Position numbers and translations under genes: made by a program. Of a stretch of 64,000 bases of DNA, positions 21,673-30,295 are shown piece after piece (within the stretch, counting starts at the first letter, position 1; the number at the start of each line of letters is the position of its first letter). The notes under the pieces are model-generated. The model did no database searches. It saw only the letters and a program-made list of their open reading frames with translations, and was not told where the DNA came from. This stretch comes from Effusibacillus pohliae DSM 22757 (lineage in GTDB: Bacteria > Bacillota > Bacilli > Tumebacillales > Effusibacillaceae), in contig NZ_AQXL01000135.1 of assembly GCF_000376225.1 (NCBI RefSeq), positions 124,001-188,000 of the forward strand, written 5' to 3'.

Positions 21673-21804
21673 TTACAGTTGGTGCCAGTCGGTGAAATTG
21701 GAAATCAGGTCGGGCAGTGCCTGGAGCAATTCGAAACACTGAAAGGCCGCAAGCGGTAAGCCTACCAGATACAACAAGCCTTCTCCAAAGTAGTGAAACA
21801 ACAT
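21673..21804 (-). CDS. small hydrophobic protein, unknown function
   Basis: A 43-residue open frame, largely hydrophobic (FGEGLLYLVGLPLAAFQCFELL), probably membrane-associated. It is supported by a strong AAGGGGGCGG site just before the ATG at 21804, by a well-formed promoter 42 bp upstream, and by a terminator just after its stop. I do not recognise a family. Confidence 0.5.
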   Translation of the reverse strand: MLFHYFGEGLLYLVGLPLAAFQCFELLQALPDLISNFTDWHQL

Positions 21805-21845
21805 CGCAACCGCCCCCTTCAAATTGTGAATAAATTGTGAACCAA

Positions 21846-21874
21846 AGTATAACAAAATTCAAACAAGATTGCAA
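21846..21874 (-). promoter_or_regulatory. sigma-A promoter for the small gene
   Basis: Reading the minus strand, TTGCAA (21874-21869) and TATACT (21851-21846) are separated by exactly 17 bp. It is the main evidence that the 43-residue frame downstream is expressed. Confidence 0.65.
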
Positions 21875-21963
21875 ATTTGACCGGGGAGCCTGAAGCGGGA
21901 GATCTGTTAGGGGACTTGCACTTTATCCCGAGCGGCTGTCCGTTTCACCTTTCGTTCCAAATC

Positions 21964-22398
21964 TCATCTTTTGTCTGATACTTCTATCGCAAACACATAA
22001 CTTGCCATTCCATTTTCCCATTGAGCTAAGATTTGATAAACAAAAACGCCTTTTTCTTTCGGAAGTACAATGGAATTCGTATCTGTTAAGGGGATTTTCC
22101 TAGTTTCATTACCGTTCCAAAGTTCTACTTGTAAAGACTGAGGAGGATTCTTAAAATTTATTGATAGTTTCGCTTTAGAAGGAGCTTCAGCAGGTTTATT
22201 TTTTTCAGCTACTTTGGGTGGGGTGTCAACGGGAGCAACAGAAGTTGATTTCGTAAAAAGGCCGCCACTCCAGGAATATCCATGAAGAACGACGGGTACA
22301 GTTTTGTCATCAACTTTTAAGGTTGGCGTCGGTGGTTGACTTGTTCCGCATCCTGTTAACAAAGCTGTGAGTAGCACCGCATAGAAGAAGGCTTTCAT
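21964..22398 (-). CDS. putative lipoprotein, unknown function
   Basis: A 144-residue protein with lipoprotein signal peptide: hydrophobic helix at residues 4-14 and lipobox LTGC at 14-17. The middle is a Pro/Lys/Ala-rich linker (about residues 55-75), followed by a small beta-rich domain with NPPQSLQVELWNGNE and a final GMASYVFAIEVSDKR. AAAGGAGAT precedes the ATG. Base composition is noticeably more AT-rich than the neighbours, which may indicate separate origin. No family recognised. Confidence 0.7.
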   Translation of the reverse strand: MKAFFYAVLLTALLTGCGTSQPPTPTLKVDDKTVPVVLHGYSWSGGLFTKSTSVAPVDTPPKVAEKNKPAEAPSKAKLSINFKNPPQSLQVELWNGNETRKIPLTDTNSIVLPKEKGVFVYQILAQWENGMASYVFAIEVSDKR

Positions 22399-22421
22399 CT
22401 TTCATCTCCTTTAAACAGTAA

Positions 22422-22652
22422 TTATTTTGCTTCTTTCAGTAGACGAGCAAATTCAGCAATTGTTTGACCTCTATGATTTTCAGGAAAGCTTTTGTTAACT
22501 ACTGGTGCCAGTTTATTTTCATATACATAAATTCCAGAAGTTATCCATAGGACTGTAGTCCCTTTTTTGTCGGTCGGTCGTGGGGTAAAGTGGAGATTGT
22601 CATGATTTTGGATGTAGGAGTGTATCGAGCGTGACGACAGGAACAATCGCAC
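22422..22652 (-). CDS. hypothetical or truncated reading frame upstream of the lipoprotein gene
   Basis: The last 45 residues (from GTTVLWITSGIYVYENK to the Lys-rich end) have a natural protein-like composition, and the stop lies 23 bp before the lipoprotein start on the same strand and in the same AT-rich style. The first 30 codons run through the promoter/start region of the divergent gene at 22631 and do not look coding. No good start is visible. It is probably the 3' remainder of a gene whose front was replaced. Confidence 0.3.
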   Translation of the reverse strand: MRLFLSSRSIHSYIQNHDNLHFTPRPTDKKGTTVLWITSGIYVYENKLAPVVNKSFPENHRGQTIAEFARLLKEAK

Positions 22653-23086
22653 GAGATGAGCAGCAAGCCAAACGCAAGCTGGAGATGGAGGAAAAGATCC
22701 TGCGTTACTTCCAGAACAAAGAGATTGCGAACGAACGGAAGGAAGAAAACAAGCTGCTGTTCGAGGAAATCGAGCAATTCTTTGAGGAAATGGAAGAAGA
22801 GGAACTGGTTTATCAACTGCCGAACGGGGAATATGCGGTGCTCACCAAAAAGGCGACCGTTCGCGAAGTATTGGACAAGGAAGCGCTGGCGCACGAGTTG
22901 CTGATCGCGAAAGACGAGCTGAAAACGCCGTTTGATTTTTCCATGTTGACGTCACAGGGAAAATTGACGCCCGACATGATCTCCCGCCACACGTCGACCG
23001 TCACCGATATACGGGTGAAGTTGAGCAAGCGAAAGACGAAACCGAGAAAGCGGAAAAGCGACGCGTCCATGCATGCGGGCCATTGA
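22631..23086 (+). CDS. hypothetical protein with acidic coiled-coil N-terminus and basic tail
   Basis: A 151-residue protein not recognised. Residues 8-60 are strongly charged and helical, with runs of Glu/Lys typical of a coiled coil (KLEMEEKILRYF, EEIEQFFEEMEEEELVY). A short middle domain YQLPNGEYAVLTKKATVREVL follows, and the last 25 residues are rich in Lys/Arg (KLSKRKTKPRKRK). TAGGAGTG precedes the GTG start. The basic tail suggests nucleic-acid or membrane contact, but that is a guess. Its stop codon directly abuts the stop of the next convergent small gene. Confidence 0.65.
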   Translation: MTTGTIARDEQQAKRKLEMEEKILRYFQNKEIANERKEENKLLFEEIEQFFEEMEEEELVYQLPNGEYAVLTKKATVREVLDKEALAHELLIAKDELKTPFDFSMLTSQGKLTPDMISRHTSTVTDIRVKLSKRKTKPRKRKSDASMHAGH

Positions 23087-23239
23087 TCAACGTTCGGCGG
23101 TCTCGCTTTCATCCGGATCATCGTCATGGAGCGAGATATAGAAAAATCCTCTTGCAATCAGCACGGCCAATACGGCGACTAACACGCAAAACAGGCAGGC
23201 GAGAAAGTAGACGATGGTCAGATGTTCCAACTGTGCCAC
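23087..23239 (-). CDS. small single-pass membrane protein
   Basis: A 50-residue frame starting GTG 23239 (or TTG 23230): a short N-terminus, a long hydrophobic helix (VYFLACLFCVLVAVLAVLIA), then FFYISLHDDDPDESET as an acidic cytoplasmic tail. GGAAAGG lies very close to the GTG. Composition and layout are typical of small membrane proteins of spore formers. It ends exactly at the convergent stop codon of the plus-strand gene. Function unknown. Confidence 0.5.
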   Translation of the reverse strand: MAQLEHLTIVYFLACLFCVLVAVLAVLIARGFFYISLHDDDPDESETAER

Positions 23240-23271
23240 ACCCTTTCCGCATGAGTCACTTTTGGGGAGTG

Positions 23272-23299
23272 AAAAAGCAAGGGGATGTCCTTGCTTTTT
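23272..23299. terminator. bidirectional rho-independent terminator
   Basis: AAAAAGCAAGG and CCTTGCTTTTT form a perfect 11-bp stem around a 6-nt loop, with T-runs in both directions. On the minus strand it ends the receiver-gene transcript. Confidence 0.85.
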
Positions 23300-23377
23300 G
23301 ATCCGCGATGATCCGCCGGGCCTGTCCCCCCTATCGGGACGCTTTCAGTCGAGTCTCGTCTGATGGGATCCGCTGGC

Positions 23378-23800
23378 CTACCCGATCTGGTGAATCGGAG
23401 ACTGCAGCACGCCGAGATCAGAACACCCCTGGGTCAGTTGCCGGATGTGGTCCGCCACAATATTCAGATCACAAGGTTTAAAAAGAAAATGGGAAGCGCC
23501 CAGTTCAAACCCCCGTTCCACGATTTTTGCCTGCGTCAGGGAAGTCAGCATAATGATTTTCGGGCAAGACTTAAGGCTCATCGTTTGCATTTTTTCCAAT
23601 ACGCCGATGCCGTCCAGCACCGGCATAATCACATCGAGAATCACGACATCGGGCGCATGCGCTTCGATCATTTCCAACACTTCATAGCCGTTGTACGCGA
23701 CGCCTGTTACCCGCATGTCACGCTGTTGTCCGATAAATTCTTCCAACAGGTTTGCAAAATCCGGATAATTGTCCGCCACGAGAACTTTAATTGCCTCCAC
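23378..23800 (-). CDS. stand-alone receiver protein related to the Spo0A receiver domain
   Basis: About 140 residues forming one response-regulator receiver. The sequence follows the Spo0A receiver closely (KVLVADNYPDFANLLEEFI, RVTGVAYNGYEVLEMIE, DVVILDVIMPVLDGIGVLEKM, ASHFLFKP, VADHIRQL) but stops about 15 residues after the domain: the Spo0A DNA-binding domain is missing. The phospho-acceptor Asp (VILDVIMP), a Thr in IMLTS and the Lys in FKP are kept; the second residue of the acidic pair is Asn (VADN). GGAGGA sits so close to ATG 23806 that GTG 23800, 6 nt downstream, is the likelier start. It may tap phosphate from the sporulation relay or act as a decoy; that is inference. Confidence 0.8.
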   Translation of the reverse strand: MEAIKVLVADNYPDFANLLEEFIGQQRDMRVTGVAYNGYEVLEMIEAHAPDVVILDVIMPVLDGIGVLEKMQTMSLKSCPKIIMLTSLTQAKIVERGFELGASHFLFKPCDLNIVADHIRQLTQGCSDLGVLQSPIHQIG

Positions 23801-23828
23801 ATGCATTCCTCCATCCGTGATCGCGACT

Positions 23829-24014
23829 CTAGATTTCGCACCAGTCGCAACCGCATTTCGCCAATTTTCGCGCCTCGTTGATCAACAGGTCGACGGAGAT
23901 CGGAATGCCCCGTTCCTGACCGATCGCCAACGCTCGGGCGAGCAACTGTTCAAACGCCTTTTCCCGGGCGAGTTCCCGCTCTGTCAGAGATAAATCTGCA
24001 TCCTTGCAGCGCAT
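23829..24014 (-). CDS. small Cys-tailed protein, unknown function
   Basis: A 61-residue, mostly helical protein ending in KCGCDWCEI, a cysteine cluster that could bind metal. The ATG at 24014 is preceded by GGAAGGTGAC with good spacing; an in-frame ATG at 24032 overlaps the ribosome binding site. It lies 28 bp in front of the Spo0A-like receiver gene on the same strand, so the two are probably co-transcribed and functionally linked. No family recognised. Confidence 0.6.
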   Translation of the reverse strand: MRCKDADLSLTERELAREKAFEQLLARALAIGQERGIPISVDLLINEARKLAKCGCDWCEI

Positions 24015-24032
24015 CGTGGTGTCACCTTCCAA

Positions 24033-24367
24033 AACCGTAAAATCGAGGATCAGTCCCTGTACTTCTTAATGTAAATGGAATCTGGCAAAGATTCGATAGG
24101 AAGTTTTGTCGAATGGTCATGTATTTTGAATTTTTTGTCGGGAACTTATTTCCAATTCCAGGTTTAGGAAGATAAGGATGACTCGCTTTTGGTGTCGCAA
24201 TAAAAACAGCCCCCTTGATGCATGAGGGGCTGACACGAAATTGGGGAACTGCCGTTTGCTGTACAAGCAAAATTACTCCGGGTTCTGTAAGAACGCGAGA
24301 TTCGTCGCGTCGGAGGAAGTTGGTCAAAAGCGACCGAAACAAAATCTGCCATGAATTCCAAATCGTC
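24033..24367. other. gene-free stretch with composition break
   Basis: About 335 bp of AT-rich sequence between the small Cys-tailed gene and the truncated activator gene. Frames on both strands are short and improbable. A stretch at about 24217-24231 (CCCCTTGATGCATGAGGGG) is a near-palindrome. The right end joins abruptly to coding sequence of the activator relic at 24368, so the stretch contains a deletion or insertion junction. I cannot identify an insertion sequence. Confidence 0.4.
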
Positions 24368-24694
24368 AGGCGGTTCACTCCTGAAACACTGGATCTTTTG
24401 TTGAACCATGATTATCCCGGAAACGTACGGGAATTACGAAATCTGGTAGAAGGTTTATGTGTCAGTGTGGAAGGGGAGTGGATCACGCCCGATGCATTAC
24501 CCATTTATCTGCAAAAACGGCACGAACATTCGGCATCTCTAAAGGCTCAAATCGACGAAACGGAACGGCGAGCGATCCGGCAAGCGCTCAGGGAGGAAGG
24601 CAGCATCCGCAAAGCGGCCAAGCGGTTACAGATCAGTCATGCGACCCTTTTGCGAAAAATGCAAAAGCATGGAATCGAAATCGATCGGGATTGA
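24368..24694 (+). pseudogene. 3' relic of a sigma-54-dependent activator (NtrC/RocR type)
   Basis: From 24368 the frame encodes RRFTPETLDLLLNHDYPGNVRELRNLVEG, the diagnostic end of the AAA+ sigma-54 interaction domain, then a linker and a Fis-type helix-turn-helix (IRKAAKRLQISHATLLRKMQKHGIEID). The sensory domain and nearly all of the ATPase (Walker A, GAFTGA loop, Walker B) are gone. The frame continues about 150 bp upstream, but that sequence is not activator-like. No start is convincing. This is a 5'-truncated relic. Confidence 0.8.
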
Positions 24695-24835
24695 GGATAT
24701 TTCAATCAGGTGTGCATCATGTACGCGTCTTTTTTTGCTCAGACAGGCACAGCCGCCCAGATCGGCACATATAGTGAATCACAGGCGCAGCAGACGACGG
24801 ATGTGTACATACTTTGTGGGAGGTGACCGACATCC

Positions 24836-25537
24836 ATGCCTGGAATTCTGGCGGCAGTGGCTTGGTTGATCCGGGAAGTGGCGTTGTTTATTTCGTACAT
24901 CAAGAACAACGCGTTCCCGCAGCCGTTGTCTGAGCAGGAGGAAGAAAAGTACCTGAAGCTGATGGCCTCCGGTGACGAGAATGCCCGCAACATCTTGATC
25001 GAGCACAACCTGCGTCTGGTTGCCCACATCGTGAAGAAGTTCGAAAATACGGGAGAAGACAACGAGGACCTCATCTCGATCGGCACGATTGGCTTGATTA
25101 AGGCGATCGAAAGTTTCCAGCCGAACAAAGGCACCAAATTGGCGACTTATGCTGCCAGATGTATAGAAAATGAAATCCTCATGCATTTGCGGTCCTTGAA
25201 GAAAACGCGCAAGGACGTGTCGTTGCACGATCCGATCGGCACGGACAAGGAGGGCAACGAAATCACGCTGATCGACGTGCTGGGAACGGAGTCGGACGAT
25301 GTGATCGACAAAGTGCAACTGAAGATGGAGAAAGCGAAAATTTACGCGCGGCTGTCCCATTTGGACGAGCGGGAACAAGAAGTGATCCGCGGCCGTTTCG
25401 GCCTGCCGGACGGCGAGGAGAAGACGCAGCGGGAAATTGCGGAAGAGTTGGGCATCTCACGCTCCTACGTGTCCCGCATTGAGAAACGCGCCCTCACCAA
25501 ACTGCTGCATGAACTGCGGCCGAAAAACCGGGAATAA
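24836..25537 (+). CDS. sigK: RNA polymerase sporulation sigma factor sigma-K, uninterrupted
   Basis: A 233-residue sigma-70 family protein that is nearly collinear with Bacillus subtilis SigK. It has a hydrophobic pro-sequence of about 20 residues ([27 protein letters not shown]), then region 2 ([46 protein letters not shown]), [22 protein letters not shown], and region 4 ([22 protein letters not shown]). It directs late mother-cell transcription after removal of the pro-peptide. The gene is continuous, with no skin-type insertion. GGGAGGTGACC precedes the ATG. Confidence 0.95.
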
Positions 25538-25564
25538 CACCGGCAAAATTTTTTTTGCAAAAGG

Positions 25565-25654
25565 CGAAACTTTTGGCTTGCAACTGTCGTCTTTAGCAGT
25601 AAACACAAATTCCTTTCCCCTTATTGCGAAGGTGTCCGTTCATGGGCACCTTCG
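25565..25654 (+). repeat. direct repeat, copy A, with ECF-type promoter motif and hairpin
   Basis: About 90 bp closely matching 30498-30588: a shared segment TGCAACTGTCGTCTTTA, a shared ACACAAATTCCTTTCCCCTT, and a hairpin (CGAAGGTG at 25627-25634, CACCTTCG at 25647-25654). Within it GAAAC (25566-25570) and CGTC (25588-25591) are 17 bp apart, the pattern of ECF-sigma (SigM/SigW-like) promoters. Copy A lies just after sigK and before the mercury operon. Together with copy B it frames the module 25.7-30.5 kb. Confidence 0.75.
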
Positions 25655-25680
25655 TTCATACAGGTGAACATTTTGCAAAA

Positions 25681-25744
25681 AGGCTTGCGTAAAACAACAA
25701 CATATTATAATATCAAAACATGACATGTATCAAAAAATTATAAT
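25681..25744 (+). promoter_or_regulatory. putative mer promoter/operator region
   Basis: A TATAAT lies at 25706-25711 with a weak TTGCGT upstream (15-bp spacing). Directly after it, the 11-bp palindrome ACATGACATGT (25718-25728) is flanked by two TATCAAAA copies. A palindrome at this position is a likely operator for the ArsR-type repressor encoded in the operon. A second TATAAT at 25739 has no -35 partner. Confidence 0.45.
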
Positions 25745-25791
25745 TCATGGATGTGATATGCTAAATTTTTCCGGGGAGGGGGAGAGTCTGC

Positions 25792-26010
25792 ATGGAGCAA
25801 AACAAGAGTCTGAAAGGTTGGTTGTTGATGGGGGCGGCATTTCTGTTTTGTCCCTGCCATCTGGTTTTCCTCGTTCCTTTGTTGGCGGGGACGGCGTTGG
25901 GAGGGATTCTCAGCCGGTACTGGGGAATTACGTCCGGCGTGTTAGCGGCGATCTTCGTCGTTTTGCTATGGCTCGGGTTCAAATTCCTCAACCAGGAGAA
26001 AAGAGGTTGA
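25792..26010 (+). CDS. MerE-like small mercury transport protein
   Basis: A 72-residue membrane protein with two hydrophobic helices. The motif CPCH in LFCPCHLVFLVPLLAGTALGGIL, followed by a second helix starting near WGI, is the hallmark of MerE and related mercury transporters, where the cysteine pair carries Hg(II) across the membrane. GGGGAGGGGGAGAG precedes the ATG. It is the first gene of the module and delivers Hg(II) to the cytosolic reductase. MerE is the best-fitting name, but other CPCH proteins (MerT/MerC/MerF type) cannot be excluded. Confidence 0.7.
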   Translation: MEQNKSLKGWLLMGAAFLFCPCHLVFLVPLLAGTALGGILSRYWGITSGVLAAIFVVLLWLGFKFLNQEKRG

Positions 26011-26016
26011 CCGGTT

Positions 26017-26301
26017 GTGGCGGGTTGCTGTAATTTGCCTTCGAATTGGAAAGACGTTGTTGAGCATCCAACGGTTTGTCCAAAGTGCGGACTGGAGGGC
26101 GTTCGGATTGACGCCCGAAAACTGAAAGAAATTTTGAGCGGAGACAATTGGAACTTGGTGTTTAAGCCGGAAGAGTACTGCCGTTGCCTCAACAAGACCT
26201 GCTCCGTCTCGTTGTTTAGCCGAGTGGACAACATGTGGTTTTGGAACCAGGACCTGCTTGAACATGCAAGGTGGAAAGAAGGGAGTGCTCAGAATGAGTG
26301 A
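26017..26301 (+). CDS. CopZ-like cysteine-rich metallochaperone (N-terminal zinc/cluster-binding domain type)
   Basis: A 94-residue protein with Cys at 4-5, CPKC near 21-24, and CRC...C near 55-62. This layout resembles the extra N-terminal domain of Archaeoglobus CopZ, which binds zinc and a [2Fe-2S] cluster; similar proteins occur in mer operons of Gram-positive bacteria. No HMA fold is included; the HMA domain is instead at the start of MerA immediately downstream. The GTG start at 26017 has AGGAGAAAAGAGG upstream. Its last 8 nt overlap merA. A role in handing over mercury or reducing equivalents is inferred. Confidence 0.6.
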
Positions 26302-27946
26302 ACGAAACAAAATTCGGGTTCGCATGGAAATCGAGGGCATGACTTGTACAGGGTGCGAACAGCATGTCGTTGCCGCATTGAAAAGTGCGGGAGCTGAAGA
26401 TGTCTCGGCCAGCTTTCGTCGCGGGGAAGCCGTATTTTACGTGTCTGAAGGACAAGACCTGTCCGAATATGCGACCGTGGTCGAATCGGTGGGCTATCAG
26501 CCGGGACAGGTTGAGATTTTGTCGACGGAACGATCCGACTTACCCACCGGCCACCACGATTACGATTTCGTGATCATCGGTTCCGGAGGAGCGGCATTTT
26601 CTGCAGCCATCAAAGCGGTCGAGCATGGCGCGAGGGTGGCGATGATCGAACGGGGAACGATTGGCGGAACGTGCGTGAACATCGGGTGCGTTCCCTCGAA
26701 AACGATGTTGCGCGCCGGGGAGGTCAATCAATTGGCGAAATGCCATCCTTTTTCCGGGTTGAACACTTCCGCCGGAGAGGTTGATTTGGGAGTGCTTGTC
26801 CAGAACAAGGATCAACTTGTACATGAGATGCGCCAGAAAAAATACGAATCGCTGATCGACGAGTATGGGTTTGAATTGATTCGCGGCGAAGCGCGGTTTG
26901 TCGATGAGAAAACGATCGAAGTCAACGGTCGTTCGATCACCGCTCATGCGTTCCTGATTGCAACCGGAGCGTCTCCGTTGATTCCGGACATAGCGGGACT
27001 TAAGGACGTGCAGTATCTGACGAGCACCAGTGCTCTCCAACTGCAGGAGGTGCCAAAACGGCTTGCGGTGATCGGTTCCGGTTACATCGCGATGGAACTG
27101 GGGCAACTGTTCCACAATCTCGGGTCGCAAGTCACATTGATGCAACGCAGCAAACGCCTGCTTAAAGAATACGATCCCGAAATTGCGGACGCTGTGGAAC
27201 AGTTTCTGACGGAACAAGGGATCGAACTGTTGAAAGGCGTTGTGTACGAGCGCGTGGAGGAAGCGGCGGGAGTCAAACGAATACACATCGAGGTCAACGG
27301 TAAAAAGCGGATCATTGAGGCGGATCACCTGCTGGTCGCAGCCGGACGCCGTCCCAACACCGATGCGTTGCATCTGGAGGTTGCGGGAGTGAAAGTCGGT
27401 TCCCGCGGAGAAGTCGTGGTGGATGAATATCTGCGTACCAGCAATCCTCGTGTCTATGCGGCGGGAGACGTGACGATGGGACCCCAATTTGTGTATGTGG
27501 CGGCTTATGAAGGCGGCATAGTGGCGGACAATGTGATGGGCGCGAATCGAAAAGCCGATCTTCGCCACGTTCCGGCGGTCACTTTCACCCATCCTTCGAT
27601 CGCGACCGTCGGGCTGACCGAAGCACAAGCGAAAGCGAAGGGGTATCAGGTGAAAACTTCCGTGCTTCCGCTCGATGCGGTTCCGCGGGCGATTGTCAAC
27701 CGGGAAACGATCGGTGTCTTCAAACTGGTCGCCGAGGCGACAAACCTTCGCATTCTCGGGGTCCATGTTGTCGCCGAAAATGCGGGGGATGTGATCTACG
27801 CGGCGACGCTTGCGGTCAAGTTCGGTTTGACGGTGGAGGATTTGCGGGAGAGCCTGGCTCCGTACCTGACGATGGCGGAAGGGTTGAAACTGGCGGCTCT
27901 CACGTTCAACAAAGACGTAAACAAACTTTCGTGTTGCGCGGGGTAA
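26294..27946 (+). CDS. merA: mercuric reductase with N-terminal HMA domain
   Basis: A 550-residue flavoprotein reducing Hg(II) to Hg(0) with NADPH. Residues 10-75 form an HMA domain with [10 protein letters not shown] (Cys18, Cys21). The FAD fold starts at [20 protein letters not shown]. The redox-active disulfide is in [13 protein letters not shown] (Cys127, Cys132). The C-terminus ends LSCCAG, with the vicinal Cys547-Cys548 that bind Hg(II); this distinguishes MerA from other disulfide reductases. ATG 26294 follows AAGGGAG; the frame is open further upstream, inside the previous gene. Confidence 0.96.
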
Positions 27947-27986
27947 AGTAGCTACAAGCAACGATCACATGGAATGGAGGGATACC

Positions 27987-28322
27987 ATGACAGAACCGAT
28001 TAAAGACGTACAAGCCATTCAATCGGAATTGTTCGCCAAGTTCTTTCACGGGCTTTCGAACCCGACGCGCTACCGGATTGTTGAAATTCTTCTCAACGGG
28101 GAAAAAAGCGTCGGCGAGTTGGTTGAACTCCTCGGAGCCAAACAAAGCCAGGTGTCCAATCAGCTGGCGTGCTTGAAATGGTGCGGATACGTCACGTCCC
28201 GGCAAGAAGGGAAATACATCTATTATTCCATTGCGGACGAGCGGGTTCGAATGATTATCGAGTTGGCCCGCCAGGTGGTCGCGGACAACGCGGCTCACAT
28301 CAACAGTTGCACCAGAATGTAA
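27987..28322 (+). CDS. ArsR-type metal-responsive repressor of the mer operon
   Basis: A 111-residue winged-helix repressor: FFHGLSNPTRYRIVEILLNGEKSVGELVELL and the recognition helix QSQVSNQLACLKWCGYV. The two cysteines in CLKWC and a third near the C-terminus (NSCTRM) give a thiol site of the CmtR/actinobacterial-MerR type rather than the classical ArsR CVC type. It probably dissociates from the mer operator on binding Hg(II). ATG 27987 follows GGAGGGA. Position 40 bp after merA supports co-transcription. Confidence 0.85.
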   Translation: MTEPIKDVQAIQSELFAKFFHGLSNPTRYRIVEILLNGEKSVGELVELLGAKQSQVSNQLACLKWCGYVTSRQEGKYIYYSIADERVRMIIELARQVVADNAAHINSCTRM

Positions 28323-28349
28323 GCATCAGGTGGAGGGAGAAACCAAACC

Positions 28350-28841
28350 ATGAATCGAAAACTCCTATTGACCGGGGTTTTGGCGGCCGCGGTAGCGGCA
28401 TTGATCGTTCTGCTGTCAGGTGCGGGGAAAATGGCGGATACGACAAAATCCCAGGCGCTTCAATTTAACGTGAAAGACATTCAAGGGCAAGACGTTCAGC
28501 TCGATCCCCAAAAAACAAACGTCATGTTCTTTATGGCCGCCTGGTGCACATCCTGTAACGAATTGGAACATAATCTGAAGCAACTCGCCAACGATCCCAA
28601 TGTGCAGGTCATCACAGTCGACGTGGACTCCACAGCGGATACCAAAGAGGCGTTGGCGGAGTTTCAAAAGAAGTACGGTGGACCGTGGGCGCACGTGCTC
28701 GACACGGATTCCGTTCTGCTTCAGAAGTTCCAAATCAATTCGCTCGACACGGTGATCATCGTCAAGAACGGACAGATCGTTCACCGAAGCATTCGACCCA
28801 GTCTGAAAACCATTCAGGAGGTTGTCCATGCCAAGTCTTAA
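28350..28841 (+). CDS. membrane-anchored thioredoxin-like protein (TlpA/ResA type)
   Basis: A 163-residue protein with an N-terminal signal anchor (residues 5-25) and an extracytoplasmic thioredoxin fold. The active site is AAWCTSC near residue 67, and the cis-Pro region is modified (SLDTVIIVKNGQIV). Such proteins reduce or oxidise disulfides outside the membrane and receive electrons through CcdA, encoded by the next gene, which overlaps by 14 nt. In a mercury operon the pair may keep surface thiols reduced; this is inference. Confidence 0.82.
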   Translation: MNRKLLLTGVLAAAVAALIVLLSGAGKMADTTKSQALQFNVKDIQGQDVQLDPQKTNVMFFMAAWCTSCNELEHNLKQLANDPNVQVITVDVDSTADTKEALAEFQKKYGGPWAHVLDTDSVLLQKFQINSLDTVIIVKNGQIVHRSIRPSLKTIQEVVHAKS

Positions 28842-29478
28842 TCTGGGAATTGTCTTCAGTGCGGGTGCCGCGGCTGCGTTCAATCCTTGCGGCGTGGCGC
28901 TGCTGCCGGCTTTTGTCGCGTATTTGATGGGCGGACAGGAAGCGCGTTGGTCGAAAGGCGTCCAAGCGGGCGTCATGATGACATTGGGATTTCTGAGTGT
29001 CTTTCTGCCCCTGGGTCTTTTGACCGCCGCGTTTAAGGGGATTTTTGCACAATACCTGTCGGTCGTGATTGTCCTTGTGGGATTTTTCCTGGTTCTCGCG
29101 GGATTCGCCATGTTTTCAGGACGCAAATTGTTGAATATAAAAAGTTTCCAGGTAAAAAAAGGAAGAAATCGGGCGAAATCTTTCTATCTGTATGGGATCG
29201 CTTACGCCATCACGTCGCTTGGCTGCACCCTGCCCATTTTTTCTCTGCTTGTGGTGTCCGCTTTGACGGCCGGAGGCTTGTTCGACGGAATGGTGAAGTT
29301 CCTGGCCTACGGAATAGGCATGGGGATTGTGGTGACACTGATCTCCGTGGCGGCTGTCGTGTCGAGACAACTCGTCCAAAGCTTTATCCACAACGTTACA
29401 CCCGTATTGAACAAATTGTCGGCTGTTTTGCTGATCGCATCGGGCATCTATTTGATGATGAAATATTGGACGTTTTGA
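28828..29478 (+). CDS. ccdA: CcdA/DsbD-type membrane thiol-disulfide transporter
   Basis: A 216-residue protein with six hydrophobic helices. The two conserved cysteine-proline regions are present: FNPCGVALLPAF in helix 1 and TSLGCTLPIFSLL in helix 4. CcdA moves electrons from cytosolic thioredoxin to extracytoplasmic thioredoxin-like partners, here the TlpA-type protein encoded just upstream. ATG 28828 was chosen because CAGGAGG lies 6 nt before it; a TTG two codons earlier is unsupported. Confidence 0.87.
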   Translation: MPSLNLGIVFSAGAAAAFNPCGVALLPAFVAYLMGGQEARWSKGVQAGVMMTLGFLSVFLPLGLLTAAFKGIFAQYLSVVIVLVGFFLVLAGFAMFSGRKLLNIKSFQVKKGRNRAKSFYLYGIAYAITSLGCTLPIFSLLVVSALTAGGLFDGMVKFLAYGIGMGIVVTLISVAAVVSRQLVQSFIHNVTPVLNKLSAVLLIASGIYLMMKYWTF

Positions 29479-29491
29479 TGGGGGTGAGACC

Positions 29492-30295
29492 ATGTACCCC
29501 ATTTTATTCGAAGTTTTGGGATTTCCGATTCGGTCTTACGGCGTCCTCATGGCGCTCGGAGTGATCTTGGGCGTTTGGATCGCGAAAAAATGGTCGGACG
29601 AGGAACGATTCAAGGGTCACATTCAGGACTTCACCCTGTACGCTTTCTTGGGCGGACTGATTGGTGCAAGAATCTGGGAGGTGGCGTTCACCTGGGACCA
29701 TTATGCGAACGATTGGCTTCAGGTGTTTGCCTTATGGAACGGGGGTCTGTCCGTTCAAGGCGGCTTGGTCGGCGGCGTTCTGGCGGGAGTGTGGTTTTGC
29801 AAAACACGGGGGATTCCCGTTTGGAAGTTTGCGGACGCGGTCGCGCCGGGCGTGATTCTGGGAATGGCTTTGGGGCGTATCGGCTGCTTGCTGACGGGAG
29901 ACTGTTACGGAATCCCCACCGATACGTTCTGGGGGATCTCCTATCCGCCTGGCACGATCGCCTATCAGGCGTATGGATCGACGCCGTTGTACCCGACGGT
30001 TGGGTTTGAAGCATTCTTCGACTTTGTGATTCTCGGGATTCTCTTCATGACGAAACAGAAACGGTGTGTGGATGGTTTTCAATTTCTGTTGATGACCGGG
30101 CTGTATTCCGTGCAACGGTTCTTTCTGGAATTTCTGCGAGGGGACAGTTTGCGCACGGTCTTTCATCTGAAAACGGCGCAAGTGGCAAGCGTGTTAACGA
30201 TTGTGGTTGTTGTTGGATTGTTAGGATACCTGAAAAAGCGAACCAAAGATTCAGCCGGATCTTCAGAACATGTAACCGATCCAAGCTTGTTGTGA
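29492..30295 (+). CDS. Lgt-like prolipoprotein diacylglyceryl transferase paralogue
   Basis: A 267-residue polytopic membrane protein with the Lgt fold (YGVLMALGVILGVWIAKKW, GARIWEVAF, GGLSVQGGLVGGV). In true Lgt the signature reads GRIGNFINGE with an essential Asn; here it is GRIGCLLTGDCYG, so Asn is replaced by Cys and a second Cys is added. This suggests a paralogue with changed activity or substrate. It is 13 bp after ccdA, with GGGGGTGAG before the ATG, and is the last large gene of the mer module. Because the thioredoxin-like partner is not a lipoprotein, its substrate is unclear. Confidence 0.75.
   Translation: MYPILFEVLGFPIRSYGVLMALGVILGVWIAKKWSDEERFKGHIQDFTLYAFLGGLIGARIWEVAFTWDHYANDWLQVFALWNGGLSVQGGLVGGVLAGVWFCKTRGIPVWKFADAVAPGVILGMALGRIGCLLTGDCYGIPTDTFWGISYPPGTIAYQAYGSTPLYPTVGFEAFFDFVILGILFMTKQKRCVDGFQFLLMTGLYSVQRFFLEFLRGDSLRTVFHLKTAQVASVLTIVVVVGLLGYLKKRTKDSAGSSEHVTDPSLL

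Follow-up and report, generated by a model that had tools for sequence, protein, structure and literature searches.

A two-gene unit beside sigK

Within the window analysed here, a 64,000-nucleotide stretch of the Effusibacillus pohliae DSM 22757 genome, two short genes lie one behind the other on the same strand, 0.8 kb before sigK and divergent from it (Table 1). The first encodes a 61-residue protein (P0002) and the second, after a gap of 22 nt, a stand-alone receiver of the Spo0A type (P0001), each with its own Shine-Dalgarno sequence. An earlier note on this DNA had placed a receiver gene and a 61-residue gene at these positions, and we recovered both open reading frames there, on the minus strand; coding log-odds (+10.5 for the 61-residue frame, +42.8 for the receiver) were positive in the frame concerned only. 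The start of the receiver gene probably has to be moved: measured from its GGAGG, the listed ATG is only 1 nt away, whereas codon 3, an in-frame GTG, is at 7 nt. This GTG also lines up with residue 1 of the Spo0As in the alignment, and we take it as the likely start.

Table 1 Features of the two-gene unit and its immediate surroundings, in window coordinates
Feature	Position	Strand	Description
Stand-alone Spo0A-type receiver P0001	23378..23806	-	ORF, 142 aa; 140 aa if the GTG at 23800 is the start
GGAGG Shine-Dalgarno of the receiver gene	23808..23812	-	7 nt before the GTG at 23800
61-aa orphan protein P0002	23829..24014	-	ORF; helices predicted at 10-34 and 41-52; C-terminal KCGCDWCEI
GGAAGGTG, Shine-Dalgarno of the 61-aa gene	24023..24030	-	8 nt before the ATG
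Terminator-like hairpin	23272..23299	-	11-bp stem with A-tract and T-tract, ~80-105 bp downstream of the receiver
Exact 0A-box-like decamer TTTTGTCGAA	24104..24113	+	Upstream of the two-gene unit; weak
Sigma-54 activator C-terminal fragment	24215-24694	+	AAA lid and Fis-type HTH, DhaR/PrdR-like

This arrangement suggests that the two genes are co-transcribed. The hairpin downstream of the receiver folds at -17.3 kcal/mol over 56 nt (z -4.4), is absent from the pattern-scan list, and is likely to mark the end of the unit. Upstream, the decamer TTTTGTCGAA would be a weak candidate for an 0A box of the pair: it occurs 31 times in the genome, against 14 copies of a backwards control, and called ORFs contain 22 of the 30 sites other than this one; the remaining eight fall between ORFs, none of them in front of a sporulation gene that we recognised.

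The 61-residue protein does end in the CGCDWC cluster described in the earlier note, as part of its KCGCDWCEI tail. A single-sequence structure model gave its helices at moderate confidence (mean pLDDT 71.3). We found no match to it in Pfam (at E 0.1), NCBIfam, PHROGs or the PDB; nor did it match the Spo0E-like family PF09388, and it is not among the four Spo0E-like matches in this genome. Its adjacency to the receiver gene is what suggests that the two act as a pair.

Beyond the unit lies the C-terminal part of a sigma-54 activator, whose N-terminal part is missing and whose full frame scores negative for coding; it is probably a gene remnant. When the flanks of sigK were compared with those in five other genomes (G001, G002, G003 on a 3-kb contig, G007 and G011), only two genes were shared: G011 has a penicillin-binding protein there, and G002 a sigma-54 activator that is longer than the fragment seen here. 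In G001 an extra N-terminal sigK fragment (L066, 12977-13174; 83% over residues 1-66) sits just upstream of the intact sigK. Directly past sigK in the window, our reading of the ORFs gives a mercury-type gene set (25792-30295, plus strand) made up of a small MerT-like protein, a small Cys-rich protein, an HMA-mercuric-reductase-like protein, an ArsR-type regulator, thioredoxin-like and CcdA-like proteins and lgt. A search of 21800-26000 against Rfam returned no match, and inspection of the locus for repeats revealed nothing of note.

Descent of the receiver from Spo0A

When P0001 was compared with protein family models, the Spo0A model TIGR02875 scored best, at 148.8 bits over model positions 2-125 of 262, which lies below the whole-protein equivalog cut-off of that model (200 bits); the next family reached 76 bits, and Pfam Response_reg scored 80.6 bits. 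P0001 is 61% identical to the Spo0A of its own genome (positions 3-126), while 15 further matches in the genome reach at most 36% and the Spo0F-like match at C132:94830 only 30%, and its best PDB matches are the Spo0A receivers 9phz and 1dz3. With a domain that ends at about residue 125 of 142, it fits the earlier description of a receiver close to that of Spo0A which stops soon past the domain.

We then placed P0001 in trees with 30 Spo0As whose loci were given, out of 52 non-own genomes with a match. In the first tree, which contained no Spo0F row, it fell in a group of 17 rows (support 98/97) made up of Spo0As from its order plus three further ones. Its nearest neighbour was the Spo0A of its own genome, with support (84/73) short of the starred level, and its branch measured 1.53 changes per column as against 0 for that Spo0A. 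The two were grouped again in a second tree from which outside receivers were left out (92/73, likewise below the starred level). A tree of residues 3-88 (30 rows, L034 dropped) placed P0001 in a loose set of eight that includes the four Spo0As of the genus (80/85). A grouping of P0001 with these four was not rejected (p-AU 0.164), and neither was a clade of the four alone (p-AU 0.12). The earlier note had set a CheY-like origin against one from Spo0A, and both the tree and the best family model side with Spo0A. Taken together, the TIGR02875 score, the identity to the host protein and the tree placement indicate that P0001 is, by its sequence, a descendant of this lineage's Spo0A.

The time of the split is not exactly datable, since four-fold sites are near saturation: 22/32 differ between P0001 and its own Spo0A, and 27/44 between that Spo0A and the one in G002. 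Gene conversion or a chimeric origin of P0001 was also considered and rejected, as four-fold sites differ about equally in the two parts of the gene (16/24 and 6/8), leaving no recently converted stretch.

Could the gene instead be a full-length Spo0A that was misassembled or frameshifted? The assembly is a draft of 135 contigs; the locus, however, sits inside a 193-kb contig, and the genome has one full Spo0A, intact and located elsewhere, which carries the only Spo0A_C domain matched in the genome. Moreover, a search 3' of the receiver for a remnant of the output domain in any frame found none, the best of many chance matches having an E-value of 2.4. We regard an assembly or annotation artefact as scarcely credible.

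To see how far the gene extends among relatives, we searched a sample of 61 genomes (its own and 60 others, of which three belong to the genus, ten more to the order and 47 to the class). Neither P0001 nor the 61-residue gene was found outside its own genome in this sample, where the open frames of all other receiver matches (E 1e-16) were at least 215 aa long. In a larger class sample, 305 of 398 genomes had a receiver match at E 1e-19 (up to ten candidates being scored per genome); no other stand-alone Spo0A receiver was among the matches listed, the other frames being at least 260 aa long, and the 61-residue protein matched one genome of the 398, its own. Looking for the pair in other spore formers, as the earlier note had proposed, therefore turned up neither gene, whether in the genus (three further genomes) or elsewhere in the class sample. 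Five class genomes had two receiver matches, namely this one, G057, G150, G169 and G266; in the last four the second is a full-length Spo0A-type match, with both frames 267 to 304 aa long.

No relative was found in viral contigs, and the region had no DNA match in plasmids, where protein matches of the receiver stayed at or below 43% identity. The receiver matched 52 phage records; four examined among the 20 listed were full-length or nearly full-length Spo0As. These four, 'Bacteriophage sp.' records from human faeces (L112-L115), hold Spo0A genes with an output domain and are probably host DNA. A Rhizobium plasmid match of the 61-residue protein (43%, E 0.07) was taken as chance. A scan of genome contigs gave 20 receiver loci at no more than 45% identity, a result that proves little because it did not return the ordinary Spo0A of the genus either. 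Among the open-licence papers listed by literature searches, none described, judging by title and abstract opening, a Spo0A that is truncated, paralogous, stand-alone or a pseudo-receiver.

Pocket, faces and constraint

P0001 keeps the first acidic pocket residue (DD1, Asp12), the acceptor Asp58, Thr88 and Lys110, and has Asn13 at DD2, where all 30 aligned Spo0As have Asp; this is the pattern that the earlier note had read from the sequence, with acceptor Asp and Lys kept and one acidic pocket residue replaced by Asn. In addition, the Asn adjoining the DD pair in Spo0A is Tyr in P0001, and the residue two past the switch Lys is Cys rather than Phe. According to PMC12632262, a receiver missing any of five active-site residues is by definition a pseudo-receiver, and P0001, one of whose five is lost at DD2, is a pseudo-receiver in this published sense. 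The same paper states that DD2 contacts the metal directly, that Asn is frequent there in pseudo-receivers, and that a receiver altered at DD, T or K may still be phosphorylated. In the genomes surveyed, a Spo0A-derived single-domain pseudo-receiver is so far known from this one genome.

The differences from Spo0A are unevenly spread. P0001 and its own Spo0A are identical at 60/86 positions in residues 3-88 but at only 16/40 in residues 89-128 (Fisher p 0.0019), whereas the Spo0As of the genus show the reverse in each of three comparisons (69 to 73/86 and 38/40, respectively). The poorly kept stretch past the switch Thr takes in the beta4-alpha4 loop, alpha4, beta5 and alpha5, a common dimer and output face of receivers. 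Likewise, 17 of 52 near-invariant Spo0A positions are changed in P0001, most of them (13) at or beyond residue 89, with three more in the pocket loop and one past Asp58. Directly past the switch Thr the changes are F90L and G91T, at a site that is presumably tied to Spo0A dimerisation. A single-sequence model of the receiver was too poor for use (mean pLDDT 40.6), and no known Spo0A suppressor residues turned up in a literature search.

This pattern bears on the decoy dimer partner proposed in the earlier note. Such a receiver would form heterodimers with Spo0A that are unable to bind DNA, and so be a dominant negative. Its overall identity to Spo0A and its missing output domain would suit such a role, and heterodimers of pseudo-receivers with their relatives are known (BldM/WhiI; PMC12632262). 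Nevertheless, the part most altered in P0001 is alpha4-beta5-alpha5, the very face through which receivers commonly dimerise and one that is nearly invariant among the Spo0As of the genus, and F90L and G91T fall within the presumed dimerisation stretch, which together make a decoy improbable.

The altered face can also be read as the site of a new function. Receivers usually meet their partners through alpha4-beta5-alpha5 (PMC12632262), and a neofunctionalised single-domain regulator might use this face to bind a new partner, possibly the 61-residue protein, with the pair working outside the sporulation relay. The close spacing of the two genes on one strand, their Shine-Dalgarno sequences and the terminator-like hairpin behind them are consistent with such a pair, as is the absence of both genes from the same relatives. 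We think this rather unlikely, given that the contact with the 61-residue protein is putative and that the Spo0B-type specificity of the receiver is largely kept. Seven phosphodonor-specificity residues of Spo0A, NELLEYD in the B. subtilis protein, are tabulated in PMC6136694; mapped onto our alignment, they read NEFLEFD in the host Spo0A and YDFLEFD in P0001, so that five of seven are the same. The alpha1 stretch, which carries four of the seven, is kept, while the region past Thr88 is changed.

A further question is whether the gene is maintained at all. Since dS between P0001 and its own Spo0A is saturated and not computable (dN 0.30), so that pairwise dN/dS would be indicative only, we turned to a neutral simulation, in which 300 copies of the host receiver, free of stops and given the same 50 replacements, were scored with a profile built from 30 Spo0A receivers. 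P0001 scored 168.9 bits, which none of the 300 copies reached (mean 116.5, maximum 139.5). Its replacements were conservative, with a mean BLOSUM62 value of 0.22 as against -0.47 in the simulations (1/300 as high), and third positions took up 0.51 of its nucleotide changes compared with 0.33 (sd 0.05) in the simulated copies. A simpler simulation of stop codons was uninformative, since 14% of the neutral copies were still free of stops at a similar divergence. P0001 is thus a maintained gene under strong overall constraint, some of which could have been in place before the output domain was lost. The rival view, of a duplicate heading for loss with little or no present function, can point to its occurrence in a single genome, to the pocket change together with the changes at near-invariant positions, and to the probable sigma-54 activator remnant that adjoins it; set against the intact frame, the positive coding score, the conservative replacements and a profile score above all the simulated ones, it strikes us as doubtful.

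A putative brake on the phosphorelay

The relay on which the earlier note supposed the receiver to act is encoded elsewhere in the genome. From sequence and neighbours, we take a gene directly before obg to be of the Spo0B type, the gene carrying DDQYG and KPFD in the pyrG locus to be Spo0F-like, and the gene after a 437-aa SpoIVB-like gene to be Spo0A. Sporulation is governed by the amount of Spo0A~P that accumulates, and the known brakes on the relay are phosphatases and kinase inhibitors, for example the Rap, Spo0E and Sda proteins.

Against this background, the reading that we put forward, tentatively and as one still short of probable, is that P0001 is a lineage-specific truncated duplicate of Spo0A that lowers Spo0A~P by competing for Spo0B or by acting as a slow phosphate sink, with the 61-residue protein as its partner. 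The receiver would use its alpha1 face, which resembles that of Spo0A, to dock on the phosphotransferase Spo0B and, because the metal-binding DD2 residue is Asn and the output domain is missing, would take phosphate poorly or to no consequence; competition or a slow sink would then lower Spo0A~P and raise the threshold for sporulation, and the co-encoded small protein would regulate or bind the receiver. We infer the docking, the inhibitory direction, the co-transcription and the part played by the small protein. As five of seven specificity residues are kept, we favour the version of the earlier note's phosphate sink in which the receiver would compete for Spo0B, and a kept alpha1 face combined with a lost alpha4-beta5-alpha5 face would likewise point to competition there over a heterodimer with Spo0A. 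Docking may nonetheless be weakened by the Asn-to-Tyr replacement, at one of the two specificity positions that differ, and by the Phe-to-Cys replacement, both of which presumably lie near the expected Spo0B contact; a new partner face and plain decay of the duplicate are serious alternatives. The pair may also serve as a metal or redox sensor, as the earlier note had suggested, the Cys cluster itself being the one piece of evidence for this. On the whole, what that note observed is confirmed, and its interpretation is partly supported.

A more elaborate proposal, which we consider very doubtful, is a dedicated relay inhibitor in which the pseudo-receiver would occupy Spo0B, be switched by metal or redox state through the Cys-tailed protein, and be under feedback from Spo0A via the putative 0A box; if it were true, the loss of a domain would here have created a checkpoint for sporulation. 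More generally, a receiver-only copy of Spo0A would be a new sort of relay brake, and a copy that has the phosphodonor face without the dimer and output side would amount to a natural experiment separating these functions.

Set beside known systems, the 61-residue protein resembles the Spo0E-like phosphatases and Sda in being small, with two predicted helices, but differs from them in its Cys tail and in having no Pfam match. P0001 resembles Spo0A (TIGR02875) in sequence, with the host Spo0A as its nearest tree row and most specificity residues in common, and differs from it in lacking Spo0A_C, in its Asn at DD2, in a rebuilt alpha4-beta5-alpha5 face and in a score below 200 bits. Like Spo0F, it is a single-domain receiver that could interact with Spo0B; unlike Spo0F, it derives from Spo0A, and the genome carries a Spo0F-like gene apart from it. 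Finally, P0001 shares the loss of one of the five active-site residues with the bacterial pseudo-receivers (atypical response regulators such as CmrT and WhiI), but whereas most of the examples taken from PMC12632262 are complete regulators that have an output domain, P0001 stands alone and is derived from Spo0A.
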